Source: Erysipelotrichaceae bacterium
Lineage (GTDB): Bacteria > Bacillota_I > Bacilli_A > Erysipelotrichales > Erysipelotrichaceae
Length of the DNA stretch: 64,000 nt
Assembly (NCBI GenBank): GCA_017404205.1
Contig: JAFRCV010000008.1
Location: 124,001-188,000 of the forward strand
Reading direction: 5' to 3'
Within the stretch, counting starts at the first letter, position 1. Each line of letters starts with the position of its first letter. Shown here piece by piece: positions 21,657 to 26,793 of the stretch. The translations under genes were made by a program, and so were the position numbers. The notes below the pieces were generated by a model. The model saw only the letters and a list, made by a program, of their open reading frames with translations, searched no databases and was not told the origin of the DNA.

Positions 21657-22829
21657 ATGTTTTTTGCTAAAAATAGAAATTTAAAAAAATATGTAGATGG
21701 CATTTACCCAATAACAAATGCCTGCAAAAATGATAAGAATATCAATAAAGTTAATGGAACAATTGGCTCTTTATATAATGAAGAAAATGTAATCGTTGCC
21801 TATAAAACAGTATATCAAGCATTAAGAAATTTAAGTAATGAAAATATTGCAAGTTATGCAAGCGGATCATTTGGAAACAAAGATTATAATGATGCAATTA
21901 GTAATTATGTTTTAGAAGATAGAATTAATAATTATCGTACAATTCCTACTCCAGGTGGAACGGGTGCAATTAATATGGCAATTAATATGTGTCTTGAAAA
22001 AGGAGACTCAATTATTCTACCTGAAGTTGCTTGGGGTAATTATAAAAATATTGCTCTTGAATATGACCTTAATGTGCTTACTTATGATATTTATGATTTA
22101 GATTCTTTATTAATACTATTAGATAAATTAGATAAAATCTTCATTGTAATTAATTCACCATGTCAAAATCCATGTGGTCTTTCATATACATTTGAACAAT
22201 GGAAAAGAATCGTTGATTATTTAAATAATTGTAATAAAGAAGCAATTATTTTGAATGATGTTGCTTATATGGATTATTCATATAATCAAAACTACAAAGA
22301 TTATTTTGAACTATTTAATCATTTGAATAATAATGTGCTTATTCTAATTGCTTATTCATGTTCTAAAGCTTTTTCTTTTTATGGTGTTCGATTAGGTTCA
22401 TTGTTTGTCATTCATAATGACAAAATATTCTTAGACGACTTTATTAATCAATGTGCTAGAAGAGCTAGAGCAACATATTCTAATGTTAATAATGGCGCAA
22501 TGAAAACAATTGTTGAATTATTAAATAATCATTATGAAGAATACATATCAGAAAAAGATTATTATATTTCTTTACTTAAAAAGCGTTCTAATATTTTTAT
22601 TAATGAATGTAAAGACAATGGCCTTGATATTTATCCTTATAATGAAGGGTTCTTTGTGACTTTAAAATTTGATGATAATAACATACGCGATGAAGCTTTT
22701 GAAAAATTATTTAAAGAGCATTTATATTTTATAAAAATGAATAAAGGTATTCGTGTTGGAATTTGTGCCATTCCTATAAAAGATATTTATGGTTTAGCAA
22801 AAAGGATTAAATCTATTATAAGCGGGTAA
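21657..22829 (+). CDS. Class I/II aminotransferase, aspartate/aromatic type
   Basis: PLP aminotransferase of 390 residues. It shows the PTPGGTGAINMA cofactor-phosphate region, NSPCQNPCGLSY (substrate loop), LNDVAYMDYSY and the Schiff-base lysine in YSCSKAFSFYGVRLG. The arrangement resembles the aromatic/aspartate group (COG1448-like). GGGAG lies 6-7 bases before the ATG. Position after asd suggests it supplies aspartate for the pathway; an aromatic amino acid role is the alternative. Confidence 0.85.
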   Translation: MFFAKNRNLKKYVDGIYPITNACKNDKNINKVNGTIGSLYNEENVIVAYKTVYQALRNLSNENIASYASGSFGNKDYNDAISNYVLEDRINNYRTIPTPGGTGAINMAINMCLEKGDSIILPEVAWGNYKNIALEYDLNVLTYDIYDLDSLLILLDKLDKIFIVINSPCQNPCGLSYTFEQWKRIVDYLNNCNKEAIILNDVAYMDYSYNQNYKDYFELFNHLNNNVLILIAYSCSKAFSFYGVRLGSLFVIHNDKIFLDDFINQCARRARATYSNVNNGAMKTIVELLNNHYEEYISEKDYYISLLKKRSNIFINECKDNGLDIYPYNEGFFVTLKFDDNNIRDEAFEKLFKEHLYFIKMNKGIRVGICAIPIKDIYGLAKRIKSIISG

Positions 22830-22833
22830 TTTT

Positions 22834-25299
22834 ATGAGCAAGATTAAATATTATGGAAACTTGTATTTAGACAGAGAAAAAGATATTGTAATTGAGTTTT
22901 ACCAATCTGGTAATTCTTATAGCTATATTCTTAGAACGCCAAATCATAAATCAGGTAATTTAATAAGAAATCTTGCTAAAATATGTGATTTACCATTAAG
23001 TTTAGATGACAATGGCCTATTGATAATAAAGGGTGAGTTGCCATCTTTTATAAATGATGAAAATAAAAGAATATATATATTAAAATTTGCTAATAAAACG
23101 GTTGCTATTATTAATGAAGAAGGGGAGATAAAAGCGCGAGCTTCTATTCCGGCAATTTCAAAAACATTAATGTCACAAAGCAAAGACATTTCTTTAAGTT
23201 TAGATAAAATTTTTGTTAGGACATATATTGAAGAGAAATATAAATTTAAAACCGATTTGCATTGCCATATGAATGCGATTTTACACCCTGACTTTTTAAT
23301 TGCTTTAGGTATAAAACATCAAATACTATATCCTTATTATTATGTTTTAAAGCTCGGACTGAAATTAACTACTAAACAAGAAGAAAAAATATTAAAACAA
23401 AGAGAAAAAGTTGCTTATAAATTTAAAGATACAATATTAGTTGGAAAGTATAAAGAAAGAAGAATTAATGATTTAACATACATTAATTTTGCTGATTTAA
23501 TTTTAAATAATATTGAAAATGCTGCTTATAATATTGAAAAAATAAGAGCTTCATTATTTATTCTTAAAGATGGCCAAGCTGTTTTTACAAATTTAGAGAA
23601 AGTTTATTTATATCGATATGTTTTCACAAAGGGAATTGAATCTAAGACAAAAATTAAATTAAAAAATCTAGATAGTATTCCTGATTTTAATATTAGAAAC
23701 TCTTTGTCTTTAATGCTTAAAGATTCTAATGATTTTAAATTTAAAAACTTTAATTTAATTGAAGATAAATTATTATGGATAGCTCGAAATTATGCACATC
23801 AAGGTATTTATTATGTTGAAATTTCTAATACTACTTTAGTTAAGGATGAAGCGGTTGATTTCATTGAAATGTGTCATAAAGTTCTTCCAATCATCGAAAA
23901 TGAAACACATGTAAAAATTAGATTTTTAGCTGCTTTAAGACGAATTCCTTTAACGATAATTAAAGATAAGGTCGCTTCTGCAGATTATTTGGTTGACAAT
24001 TTAAATGTATTAAAAGCCGTTGCTAAAGATCCGTATGTTGTGGGTTGTGACATTGTTGGGGAAGAAATTAATGATATACGAGATTTAAAGCCTGTAATTA
24101 ATGAAATAGTTAATTATTGTAATCTTGATGAATTTTTTACTATTAGGATTCATGCTGGTGAAAATGATTCATTAACAAACAATGTTGCTTCTAGTATACA
24201 GCTAGTAAAAGAATCATTAAAAGAAAATCAAAAATTTCCTAAATTACGAATTGGACACGGTTTATATGTACCTTCATTAACAAGTAAAAAAGGAAAAAAA
24301 CTAATTAAAGATATTAAAGATAATAATGTTGTTTTAGAATTTCAATTAACATCCAATGTAAGATTAAATAATTTGAATTCTATTGAAAGTCATCCTGTTA
24401 AGGAATATCTTAATAATAATGTTAAATGCTTACAAGGTAGTGATGGTGGTGGCGTTTATGGAACAAATATGTTAGATGAAGAACTTGCACTTATTAATTT
24501 CTTTAATCTTAAAAAAGAAGATTTAATGAAAATGATTAATGTAGAAAATGAAATTATTGAGTTTTCAAATACTGCCTTTATTAAAAAAACAAAACTATTT
24601 AATCATTTAATAAAGAATTTAGGCATAAGAAAAACACTAGAAACAATAATTGAAAATAATAGATCTATATCTAACAATTTAGATTTTAAAAGTAACTCAA
24701 GCATATTAAGCTTTAATGCATTAAATAATCAAATTAAGGAACTACCAACTAATAAATTACCAATTATTATATGCGGTGGAAGCTTTAATGCTGATACAAG
24801 GAATGATAAATTATTAAGCATTGAAAAGGAACTTATTGATGAGTTATTAAAAAAGCTAAGTCCTAAAAAATATTTCTTTGTGATAGGTCATAAACTAAAG
24901 AGTTATGAAAAATACCTTTTTGAAAAAAATAATGAAAAATTTGATTTATTTGCAATTGTTCCTGCAAGTATTAGTAAAACTGAGAAAAATCATTTATTAA
25001 AAGCTAAGGTTAATATAAGAATTTCTACAGAATCTTTAGGTATGGGGATTTATAAATCATTTAATTATGAAATATTTGAAAGAAGAAAATCGGTTTTAAT
25101 TGCCATGATGGGAAATTCGGCTGCATTAAATTTAATACAGGAAGCAAATAATGGTAAAGCAAAAGCTTTAATCTATATTTCTAATAATGACAAGCATTTA
25201 AAACAAAAAGCTGATTATTTATCTGGTTATGTAAACATCTATTCAAATAAAAAAGATATTGATTTAATGATTAAAAATATCAAAAGAATTATGTATTAA
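22834..25299 (+). CDS. Large adenosine-deaminase-family protein with an extra C-terminal Rossmann-like domain
   Basis: An 821-residue protein with three parts. Residues 1-135 are a beta-rich domain I cannot assign. Residues 136-590 are an adenosine/AMP deaminase barrel: metal histidines 143 and 145 (DLHCH), His440 and Glu443 (HAGEND), His475 (GHGLYV), Asp537 (GSDGGG, where many ADAs have two aspartates). About 110-170 residues are inserted after the first histidines. Residues 640-805 form an alpha/beta domain starting IIICGGSFN with IGHKL and LIAMMGNSAA, suggestive of the SLOG nucleotide-binding fold. It starts four bases after the aminotransferase. Substrate unknown; no RdrA-type ATPase is adjacent, so it is not a standard RADAR locus. 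Confidence 0.75.
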   Translation: MSKIKYYGNLYLDREKDIVIEFYQSGNSYSYILRTPNHKSGNLIRNLAKICDLPLSLDDNGLLIIKGELPSFINDENKRIYILKFANKTVAIINEEGEIKARASIPAISKTLMSQSKDISLSLDKIFVRTYIEEKYKFKTDLHCHMNAILHPDFLIALGIKHQILYPYYYVLKLGLKLTTKQEEKILKQREKVAYKFKDTILVGKYKERRINDLTYINFADLILNNIENAAYNIEKIRASLFILKDGQAVFTNLEKVYLYRYVFTKGIESKTKIKLKNLDSIPDFNIRNSLSLMLKDSNDFKFKNFNLIEDKLLWIARNYAHQGIYYVEISNTTLVKDEAVDFIEMCHKVLPIIENETHVKIRFLAALRRIPLTIIKDKVASADYLVDNLNVLKAVAKDPYVVGCDIVGEEINDIRDLKPVINEIVNYCNLDEFFTIRIHAGENDSLTNNVASSIQLVKESLKENQKFPKLRIGHGLYVPSLTSKKGKKLIKDIKDNNVVLEFQLTSNVRLNNLNSIESHPVKEYLNNNVKCLQGSDGGGVYGTNMLDEELALINFFNLKKEDLMKMINVENEIIEFSNTAFIKKTKLFNHLIKNLGIRKTLETIIENNRSISNNLDFKSNSSILSFNALNNQIKELPTNKLPIIICGGSFNADTRNDKLLSIEKELIDELLKKLSPKKYFFVIGHKLKSYEKYLFEKNNEKFDLFAIVPASISKTEKNHLLKAKVNIRISTESLGMGIYKSFNYEIFERRKSVLIAMMGNSAALNLIQEANNGKAKALIYISNNDKHLKQKADYLSGYVNIYSNKKDIDLMIKNIKRIMY

Positions 25300-25318: not shown

Positions 25319-26218
25319 ATGGAAGATATATTTAACATTGAACACAAGAATTATTCTGGAACTATTACTAAAGGTTGTTTAGCTCTTGAAGGTGGGGCAT
25401 TTAGAGGAATTTATACATCTGGAGTATTAGATTATTTTATTGAGCATAATTTAAATTTAAGCGATGCTTATGGAGTTTCTGCTGGTGCTTTGAATGCTGC
25501 AAATTACATGGCAGAAGCTTTTGGAAGAAGTGGACTTCTAATCTTAGAACATCGACATAATAAACATTATGTTGGGCTTCAAGCATTAAAAGAATCGGGC
25601 AGTATAGTTGGCTTTGAATTCATGTTGAATGAACTAAATAAAGAATACCCATTAAATGAAGAATTGTTATTTAGCAAAAAGAAAAACCTGACCGTAGTAG
25701 CTACAAATGTATATACGGGTCAGCCTGAATATTTTTCAAATCATGATGGTAGTATTACTTTCTATAAAGCGATTAGGGCCAGCGCATCAATTCCTTTAGT
25801 ATCAAAAATGGTTAAAATTAATAATCAATTATATTTAGATGGTGGATGTGCAACAAAGCTTCCAATTAGAAAAGCAATTGAAGATGGTCATAAAAAAATT
25901 ATTTTTATTGGCACTAGAGATGCATCATATCGTAGAAAAACAAATTCAAAAGAAAATGAATTAATAAAAGTAATTTATCATCGTTACCCAAATTTTGTAA
26001 AGAGTTATCTAAATGCTAATGCTTTGTATAATCAAGATTGTGATTATATAGATGAATTAGTAAAAGAAAACAAAATATATCGTATTACGCCAAGCATTCC
26101 GGTTACTGTTGGACGTTTAGAAAAAAGTGTTAAAAAATTAAGCGAATTATATTATCTTGGTTATAACGATGCGGCTAAACACTTTGATAAAGTAATTGAA
26201 TTTCTTAACTCTAAATAA
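25319..26218 (+). CDS. Patatin-like phospholipase (YjjU-like)
   Basis: A 299-residue serine lipid hydrolase. The oxyanion glycine-rich loop EGGAFRG (about 24-30), nucleophile elbow GVSAG (Ser about 51) and catalytic Asp in LDGGCA are all present. The architecture is that of the stand-alone bacterial YjjU/RssA-like group rather than a CBASS effector. It follows the deaminase gene by 19 bases but has its own leaderless-type promoter. A strong terminator follows. Confidence 0.88.
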   Translation: MEDIFNIEHKNYSGTITKGCLALEGGAFRGIYTSGVLDYFIEHNLNLSDAYGVSAGALNAANYMAEAFGRSGLLILEHRHNKHYVGLQALKESGSIVGFEFMLNELNKEYPLNEELLFSKKKNLTVVATNVYTGQPEYFSNHDGSITFYKAIRASASIPLVSKMVKINNQLYLDGGCATKLPIRKAIEDGHKKIIFIGTRDASYRRKTNSKENELIKVIYHRYPNFVKSYLNANALYNQDCDYIDELVKENKIYRITPSIPVTVGRLEKSVKKLSELYYLGYNDAAKHFDKVIEFLNSK

Positions 26219-26222
26219 CAAT

Positions 26223-26246
26223 CCGCACGTATAACGTGCGGTTTTT
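26223..26246 (+). terminator. Terminator of the patatin gene
   Basis: Eight-bp G+C-rich stem CCGCACGT / ACGTGCGG, loop ATA, then TTTTT. Confidence 0.92.
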
Positions 26247-26328: not shown

Positions 26329-26793
26329 TTATCCCTTAAAGGGATCTATGTGTTCTTTCTTGCTTAAGTTATCTTGCATCATATCTTCTTGTTCTTGGTT
26401 TTTGATGTATTCTTGTACTACTTTTGCATTTAAACCTACAGTAGATACATAATACCATTTTGCCCAGAAATTACGATTGCCATACTTATACTTTAAGTTC
26501 GCATGTTTTTCGAAAATCATCAATGATGATTTTCCTTTAAGATAACCCATAAAACTAGATACTGATATCTTAGGTGGAATCTTAACCAACATATGTATAT
26601 GATCGGACATTGCATGTCCTTCTATCAGCTCTACATTCTTATATACACATAATTGTTTTAAGATTTGCCCTATGTCAGATCTTAACTTCCCATATATCGC
26701 TTTTCTACGATATTTAGGTATAAATACTATATGGTACTTACAGTTCCATCTAGTATGTGATAAACTACTATCGTCATTTGCTTTATTGGCCAA
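26329..26793 (-). CDS. tnpA: IS200-family transposase TnpA (HUH/Y1)
   Basis: A 154-residue single-strand transposase. The HUH motif is His65-Ile-His67 in SDHIHMLV and the nucleophile is Tyr129 in VVQEYIKNQ; the conserved start TRWNCKYHIVFIPKYRRK is present and length is normal, so it is probably active. The start codon is TTG with AAGGAGGT seven bases upstream. An exact complement of that Shine-Dalgarno lies further upstream and may block translation of read-through RNA. Confidence 0.92.
   Translation of the reverse strand: MANKANDDSSLSHTRWNCKYHIVFIPKYRRKAIYGKLRSDIGQILKQLCVYKNVELIEGHAMSDHIHMLVKIPPKISVSSFMGYLKGKSSLMIFEKHANLKYKYGNRNFWAKWYYVSTVGLNAKVVQEYIKNQEQEDMMQDNLSKKEHIDPFKG

Follow-up and report, generated by a model that had tools for sequence, protein, structure and literature searches.

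A zinc deaminase barrel joined to a predicted SLOG domain in gut and rumen Firmicutes: a candidate ligand-gated adenine-nucleotide deaminase

In silico analysis of a 64,000-nucleotide stretch of DNA (the window) revealed an open reading frame with an ATG start (22834..25299; coordinates refer to the window and, unless stated otherwise, to its plus strand) whose 821-residue product joins an adenosine deaminase (ADA)-type barrel to an N-terminal beta domain and to a C-terminal domain predicted to adopt the SLOG fold. This ADA-SLOG is a real protein, and sensor-gated deaminases as a kind are already known; to our knowledge, no function has been assigned to ADA-SLOG itself. By analogy, and with about even confidence, we propose that it may serve as a single-protein, ligand-gated deaminase of adenine nucleotides. 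Among the evidence for this proposal are a catalytic residue set retained in all 88 homologues compared, the predicted SLOG fold of the C-terminal domain, and the joint conservation of the whole architecture. We found no literature report of an ADA fused to SLOG, LSDAT, or STALD, with a large comparative survey of conflict systems centred on nucleotides, from 2015, lying outside that search.

The sole Pfam match of the 821-residue protein was A_deaminase (E 2e-16, 60.4 bits; cut-off 27), and the protein reached the curated Pfam score of the ADA/AMP-deaminase superfamily (PF00962). It scored 45.7 bits against TIGR01430, the equivalog model of canonical adenosine deaminase, and did not reach the cut-off of 216.55 set for this model. 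Since the same genome encodes an ordinary ADA of 339 residues by a separate gene on the same contig, ADA-SLOG is not the housekeeping enzyme, and at 821 residues it is indeed more than twice as large as the latter, as had been claimed in the original prediction. The 339-residue ADA (L136:4188-5207, G000:C3) carries HAGD at the place where ADA proteins usually have HAGE, and NTDN instead of SDDP.

Full-length homologues of ADA-SLOG in relatives of the organism possess 46-66% identity. When a species-genome collection was searched by tblastn with an alignment-based query, at least 509 candidate relatives were found, while a single-sequence query of the genome collection retrieved none of them; judged by its sequences, the family is far beyond chance. 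We kept the best 80 of these at least 509 relatives for the family analysis; their proteins are about 810-856 residues long, except for one frame of 1000 residues, the extra length of which may be a matter of the assigned start site. In one genome (G1160:C1:145764-148316), the ADA-SLOG copy appeared as two overlapping matches, perhaps in different frames, possibly reflecting a frameshift, an insertion, or an assembly error. Residue conservation, scored across 88 homologues, had mean values of 0.71 for the N-terminal domain, 0.75 for the barrel, 0.66 for the C-terminal domain, and 0.47 for the linker (residues ~591-640; 24604..24753), which is the least conserved stretch between domains. The three domains are therefore kept together, and the domain architecture as well as the zinc-binding and catalytic residues were found in 88 of 88 homologues.

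Foldseek and VIA alignments to ADA, AMP deaminase, and Cad1 identified the central part of the protein (residues ~136-590; 23239..24603) as an ADA-type barrel. For residues 122-584, Z-scores reached 25.9 for ADA, 20-22 for Cad1, and 21 for AMP deaminase; RdrB was not among the barrel structure matches listed, an absence that does not exclude likeness. All six residues to which the original prediction had assigned the deaminase site (His143, His145, His440, Glu443, His475, and Asp537) proved to be invariant in the 88 homologues. They are contributed by the zinc-binding HxH motif (His143-x-His145-x-Asn147; 23260..23274), assigned by HMMER alignment to Plasmodium ADA, by His440-Ala-Gly-Glu443 (24151..24162), which provides a zinc ligand and the catalytic glutamate, by the GHG motif containing His475 (24256..24258), and by Asp537-Gly538 (24442..24447), which HMMER aligned to SDD of the Plasmodium enzyme. 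The same alignment uncovered a trait on which the original prediction was silent: both adenosine-binding aspartates of canonical ADA, Asp19 and Asp296, are changed, and this holds for 88 of 88 homologues. The position of Asp19 in mouse ADA numbering is occupied by Asn147 (Asn in 83 and Ser in five of the 88 proteins), and the Asp296 position by Gly538 (88/88), with the zinc ligand Asp537 being kept. The insertion in the barrel that had been predicted (residues ~176-300; 23359..23733) was recovered in the model as helices spanning residues 180-297, located between strands 1 and 2 of the barrel, and 26 positions of this ~100-residue segment are invariant across the 88 homologues. The model, and with it the geometry of the pocket, is of low confidence at the active-site loops (residues 244-254, 374-379, 511-515, and 538-543). 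The N-terminal domain (residues 1-135; 22834..23238) is predicted to be mostly beta, with pLDDT values of ~70-90. When searched alone, it had no convincing sequence match in Pfam, NCBIfam, or the PDB, a profile search of the latter included.

The C-terminal domain (residues ~641-803; 24754..25242), folded alone together with 70 homologues, gave a confident model (pLDDT 93.5, pTM 0.91). Foldseek searches with this model had as their top matches the Moco carrier protein 6y01 (3e-4), the N-terminus of TRPM8, ShosA, and LOG-type proteins; the lower ranks were mixed, and only two matches fell below 0.001. After VIA re-alignment, all 50 matches listed were Moco carrier, TRPM, DprA, LOG, or LOG-like proteins, with Z-scores of 12.5-14.6 over 154-187 residues and identities of 8-17%. 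The best of these alignments were to TRPM2 (Z 14.6, rmsd 3.1 over 185 residues) and to the Moco carrier (Z 14.5, rmsd 3.0 over 158 residues). Since models without a true match typically reach a best Z of 7-8, these values are well above background. The N-terminal SLOG (LSDAT) domain of TRPM, the Moco carrier, LOG, and DprA share the predicted fold of the C-terminal domain of ADA-SLOG, whereas the latter differs from them in its low sequence identity, in lacking the LOG motif, and in being joined to a deaminase. Sequence searches with the C-terminal ~165-200 residues alone gave no convincing match in Pfam, NCBIfam, or the PDB; a divergent relative (P0002, see below) matched the Pfam family LSDAT_prok ("SLOG in TRPM, prokaryote") weakly at 0.0069, under the family cut-off, and the C-terminal domains of the ADA-SLOG family and of P0002 align profile to profile (hhalign E 4e-8). 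The SLOG-like character originally proposed for the C-terminus is confirmed for the predicted structure, mainly by fold match and with weak support from sequence. Weak matches of the C-terminus to Pfam Toprim_2 were seen in 15 of 70 members (best 0.0074); the fold search gave this reading no support, and we rejected it.

The two short motifs that had been highlighted in this domain fared differently. GGS, part of a GGSFN loop (residues 648-652; 24775..24789), is invariant, its G, G, and S being present in 88 of 88 homologues, with the following F in 87 and N in 85; the histidine of IGH is found in only 73 of the 88 proteins. About 20 residues of the SLOG domain are invariant, among them G648, G649, S650, K741, S742, E746, Q769, and N773, and they suggest a putative ligand site. 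The conserved polar residues S650, K741, S742, E746, N761, S762, N766, Q769, and N773 would fit such a pocket. Several of the latter lie in a conserved xGNSAxxxxIQExxN segment (residues 759-773; 25108..25152), which by strand order takes the place that PGGxGTxxE occupies in LOG enzymes. Neither this LOG catalytic motif nor the shorter GGxGT is present in any of the 88 homologues. SLOG folds elsewhere bind signaling nucleotides, and they also occur as enzymes or as nucleic-acid binders (DprA).

As originally described, the ADA-SLOG gene is positioned between an aspartate-family operon and a patatin gene. The class I/II aminotransferase gene preceding it (21657..22829), itself located behind a hom-lysC-asd run, is separated by 4 bp, counted from its stop codon, from the start of ADA-SLOG, and a gene for a patatin-like protein with DUF6363 (25319..26218) follows after 19 bp and is succeeded by a terminator-like hairpin (26223..26241). 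Directly after the patatin gene and this terminator, an IS200-like Y1 transposase gene (26329-26793, minus strand; PF01797, 2.5e-38) is present; it is missing from the syntenic loci L027 and L167. Among the homologue neighborhoods read, patatin adjoins ADA-SLOG only in genome G014, which shares the syntenic block, ADA-SLOG included, with the window genome. In a congener (G001; L167:6722-8810), the block is fully syntenic and the ADA-SLOG gene is missing, with 13 bp separating the aminotransferase and patatin genes; the gene therefore comes or goes as a unit. Since the block occurs without the gene and other homologues are flanked otherwise, we ruled out a partnership with the aspartate-family genes or with patatin. 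We likewise rejected patatin as a CBASS effector; it scored 22.8 against a curated CBASS model with a cut-off of 200, and the pairing is not conserved.

Elsewhere, the neighbors of ADA-SLOG homologues differ almost everywhere, and no neighbor recurs. A survey of 150 neighbors of homologues revealed no purine-salvage family among the 25 most frequent of the 156 Pfam families listed. The homologues are thus not tied to purine salvage operons, and a role within a purine operon was ruled out. No recurrent defense gene suggesting a linkage was seen among these 150 neighbors or those in the window. In agreement with the original prediction that no RdrA ATPase is nearby, RdrA was found neither among the window neighbors nor in the 25 most frequent of the 32 families listed for the same 150 homologue neighbors. 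No TIR gene was recognized beside ADA-SLOG in the window.

In one rumen lineage, the ADA-SLOG gene is close to fixation, whereas its occurrence in other lineages is scattered. It was present in six of 392 sampled genomes of the phylum to which the window belongs and in 18 of 299 genomes of the Butyrivibrio family. Within the genus Butyrivibrio, 58 of 79 genomes carry it, and 31 of the 32 with a size of at least 3.7 Mb (a hand count from the genus table) do so with intact frames; its occurrence in the genus of the window organism is patchy. A tree of 70 sequences requires several changes of family label (five for Erysipelotrichaceae, six for Lachnospiraceae), but since these labels rest on bins and submitter names, the tree is weak evidence for transfer. 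Searches of phage records, plasmid records, and viral contigs gave no match to ADA-SLOG. An obligate TIR partner was ruled out, since at least eight of 24 carriers have neither a TIR_2 nor a ThsB_TIR match, the single-contig genome G042 and the 100%-complete genome G048 being among them. Seven TIR_2 matches were found in another carrier (G018; G018:C8, G018:C49); five of these share one contig and suggest a TIR gene array.

A second, divergent ADA-SLOG subfamily is represented by the 783-residue protein P0002 (L135:8226-10577, genome G722). It has the same domain order as the main family and aligns with it end to end (hhalign E 3e-53), its Asp296 and Asp19 positions being occupied by Gly and Ala, respectively. 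Its N-terminal domain and barrel insertion are shorter than those of the main family, and its SLOG-like motif, VTGGTNHGVEKEAH, is more typical. Upstream of it lie a Nudix gene and a gene with weak likeness to ART.

Among the PADLOC models, CARF_ADA (Cad1) was the only related one; it was matched by the window protein and by 43 of 56 members, and the profile covers the ADA part only (residues 139-569 versus model positions 260-573 of 605). Like ADA-SLOG, Cad1/CAAD of type III CRISPR systems combines a zinc ADA barrel with a Rossmann-type nucleotide-sensing domain (a putative sensor in ADA-SLOG), and its Asp19 and Asp296 positions are likewise substituted. The replacing residues differ: Cad1 has Gly where ADA-SLOG has Asn at the Asp19 position, and Asn instead of Gly at the Asp296 position. 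Moreover, the sensor of Cad1 is an N-terminal CARF domain, whereas the putative sensor of ADA-SLOG is the C-terminal SLOG domain; ADA-SLOG lacks an N-terminal CARF domain and begins with the ~135-residue beta domain, which is extra relative to Cad1. No CRISPR linkage of ADA-SLOG was seen in the neighbors scanned. TaqCad1, with Gly and Asn at the Asp19- and Asp296-equivalent positions, has poor activity on adenosine and converts ATP to ITP once its CARF domain is occupied; when both aspartates were put back, adenosine activity was not regained, so that these positions alone do not set specificity (PMC12669630). For this reason, we take the corresponding changes in ADA-SLOG as a hint and not as proof.

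ThsA, the SIR2-SLOG protein of type I Thoeris, resembles ADA-SLOG in linking a nucleotide-metabolizing enzyme to a C-terminal SLOG domain, which in ThsA binds cyclic ADP-ribose isomers and thereby switches the SIR2 NADase (PMC11204291, PMC12948488). The output enzyme is an NADase in ThsA and an ADA in ADA-SLOG, and the latter has no adjoining TIR partner gene. RdrB is, like ADA-SLOG, a large ADA-family protein with an N-terminal extension and a barrel insertion, and the ADA domains of RADAR produce ITP (PMC9994260). ADA-SLOG differs from RdrB by the absence of RdrA and of insertion 3, by the presence of the SLOG domain, and by the lack of a match to the RdrB models. The barrel fold and the HxH, HAGE, GHG, and D motifs are common to ADA-SLOG, canonical ADA, ADAL, and AMP deaminase; the ~100-residue barrel insertion, the two extra domains, and the replaced substrate-binding aspartates set ADA-SLOG apart from these enzymes.

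Since both nucleoside-binding aspartates are replaced and many basic residues are invariant (R261, R318, R363, R369, R370, R472, R510, K245, K256, and K337), we infer that the substrate hydrolytically deaminated by the barrel would be not adenosine but an adenine nucleotide with a 5' phosphate, such as AMP, ATP, dATP, or a related compound. The change of Asp296 to Gly could instead mean that another base is used or that the enzyme is impaired. The SLOG domain would bind a nucleotide or an ADP-ribose-type ligand and would switch or tune the deaminase, in the way that Cad1 is controlled by CARF and ThsA by SLOG. Lacking the LOG catalytic motif, it would more probably act as a sensor than as an additional enzyme. 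Control of the adenylate pool during growth or stress of gut and rumen Firmicutes is the role we regard as most likely, with antiviral use as the main alternative; the near-core status of the gene in large Butyrivibrio genomes, with its frames intact, fits such a physiological role.

ADA-SLOG might instead be a stand-alone anti-phage effector in which an infection signal of the nucleotide or ADP-ribose type is bound by the SLOG domain in the manner of ThsA, and the deaminase, with an output like that of RADAR or Cad1, makes (d)ITP from (d)ATP and stops phage growth. The domain logic is in keeping with this, given the gating of ThsA by SLOG (PMC11204291, PMC12948488) and the formation of ITP by ADA in RADAR (PMC9994260) and Cad1 (PMC12669630), and so are the patchy occurrence in the genus of the window organism, the clean single-gene empty site in G001, the unrelated neighbors of the homologues, and the family-level scatter in the tree. 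We nevertheless consider this rather unlikely. No defense genes recur in the neighborhoods, no gene for a signal-making enzyme is consistently linked, and at least eight of the 24 carriers have no TIR_2 or ThsB_TIR match. The absence of ADA-SLOG from the phage, plasmid, and viral collections, its well-conserved and not fast-evolving sequence, and its presence in nearly every large Butyrivibrio genome, which would be unusual for a defense gene, also argue against it.

A bifunctional catabolic enzyme, the ADA part of which deaminates (modified) AMP before a LOG-like SLOG domain removes ribose 5-phosphate, would agree with the occurrence among the SLOG structure matches of LOG enzymes, whose substrates are N6-modified AMP, and with Asn at the Asp19 position, a residue also seen there in N6-methyl-AMP deaminases (ADAL/MAPDA). 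However, with PGGxGTxxE and GGxGT in none of the 88 homologues and xGNSAxxxxIQE at the equivalent segment, this reading is improbable. We are similarly doubtful that ADA-SLOG is an ordinary adenosine deaminase whose additional domains merely provide stability or oligomerization: the intact catalytic residues and ADA as the best fold match of the barrel agree with it, but both adenosine-specific aspartates are replaced throughout the family, a normal ADA is already present in this genome, and the ~20 invariant SLOG residues suggest a ligand site. Least probable of all, to a degree that we hardly expect it, is an RdrB-type protein whose RdrA was lost or separated. PADLOC RdrB models did not match ADA-SLOG at E-values up to 10, RdrA is not beside the gene, only 62 residues separate the last His from Asp537, leaving no insertion at the site of RdrB insertion 3, and a SLOG domain is not described for RdrB. 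These points outweigh the similar layout, in which HxH is preceded by an N-terminal extension and the barrel is interrupted by an insertion, and the correspondence of RdrB residues H152/H154, H498, E501, and H530 (PMC9994260) to H143/H145, H440, E443, and H475 of ADA-SLOG.

Hundreds of gut and rumen Firmicutes genomes encode ADA-SLOG, and nearly all large genomes of the fiber-degrading genus Butyrivibrio do so. It is conceivable, although in our view unlikely, that ADA-SLOG constitutes a one-gene antiviral or stress switch whose SLOG domain perceives a nucleotide signal, of the ADP-ribose type or another, without requiring a linked gene for a dedicated partner, and then activates the deamination of (d)ATP to (d)ITP; if this were true, deaminase-based immunity would gain a further class of sensor in addition to CARF (Cad1) and RdrA (RADAR). 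RADAR and Cad1 are two ADA-based systems in which a sensor controls the conversion of the ATP pool to ITP. A third architecture, with the deaminase under same-chain control by a SLOG domain like those of Thoeris and TRPM channels, would extend the range of ligands that can gate nucleotide deaminases.
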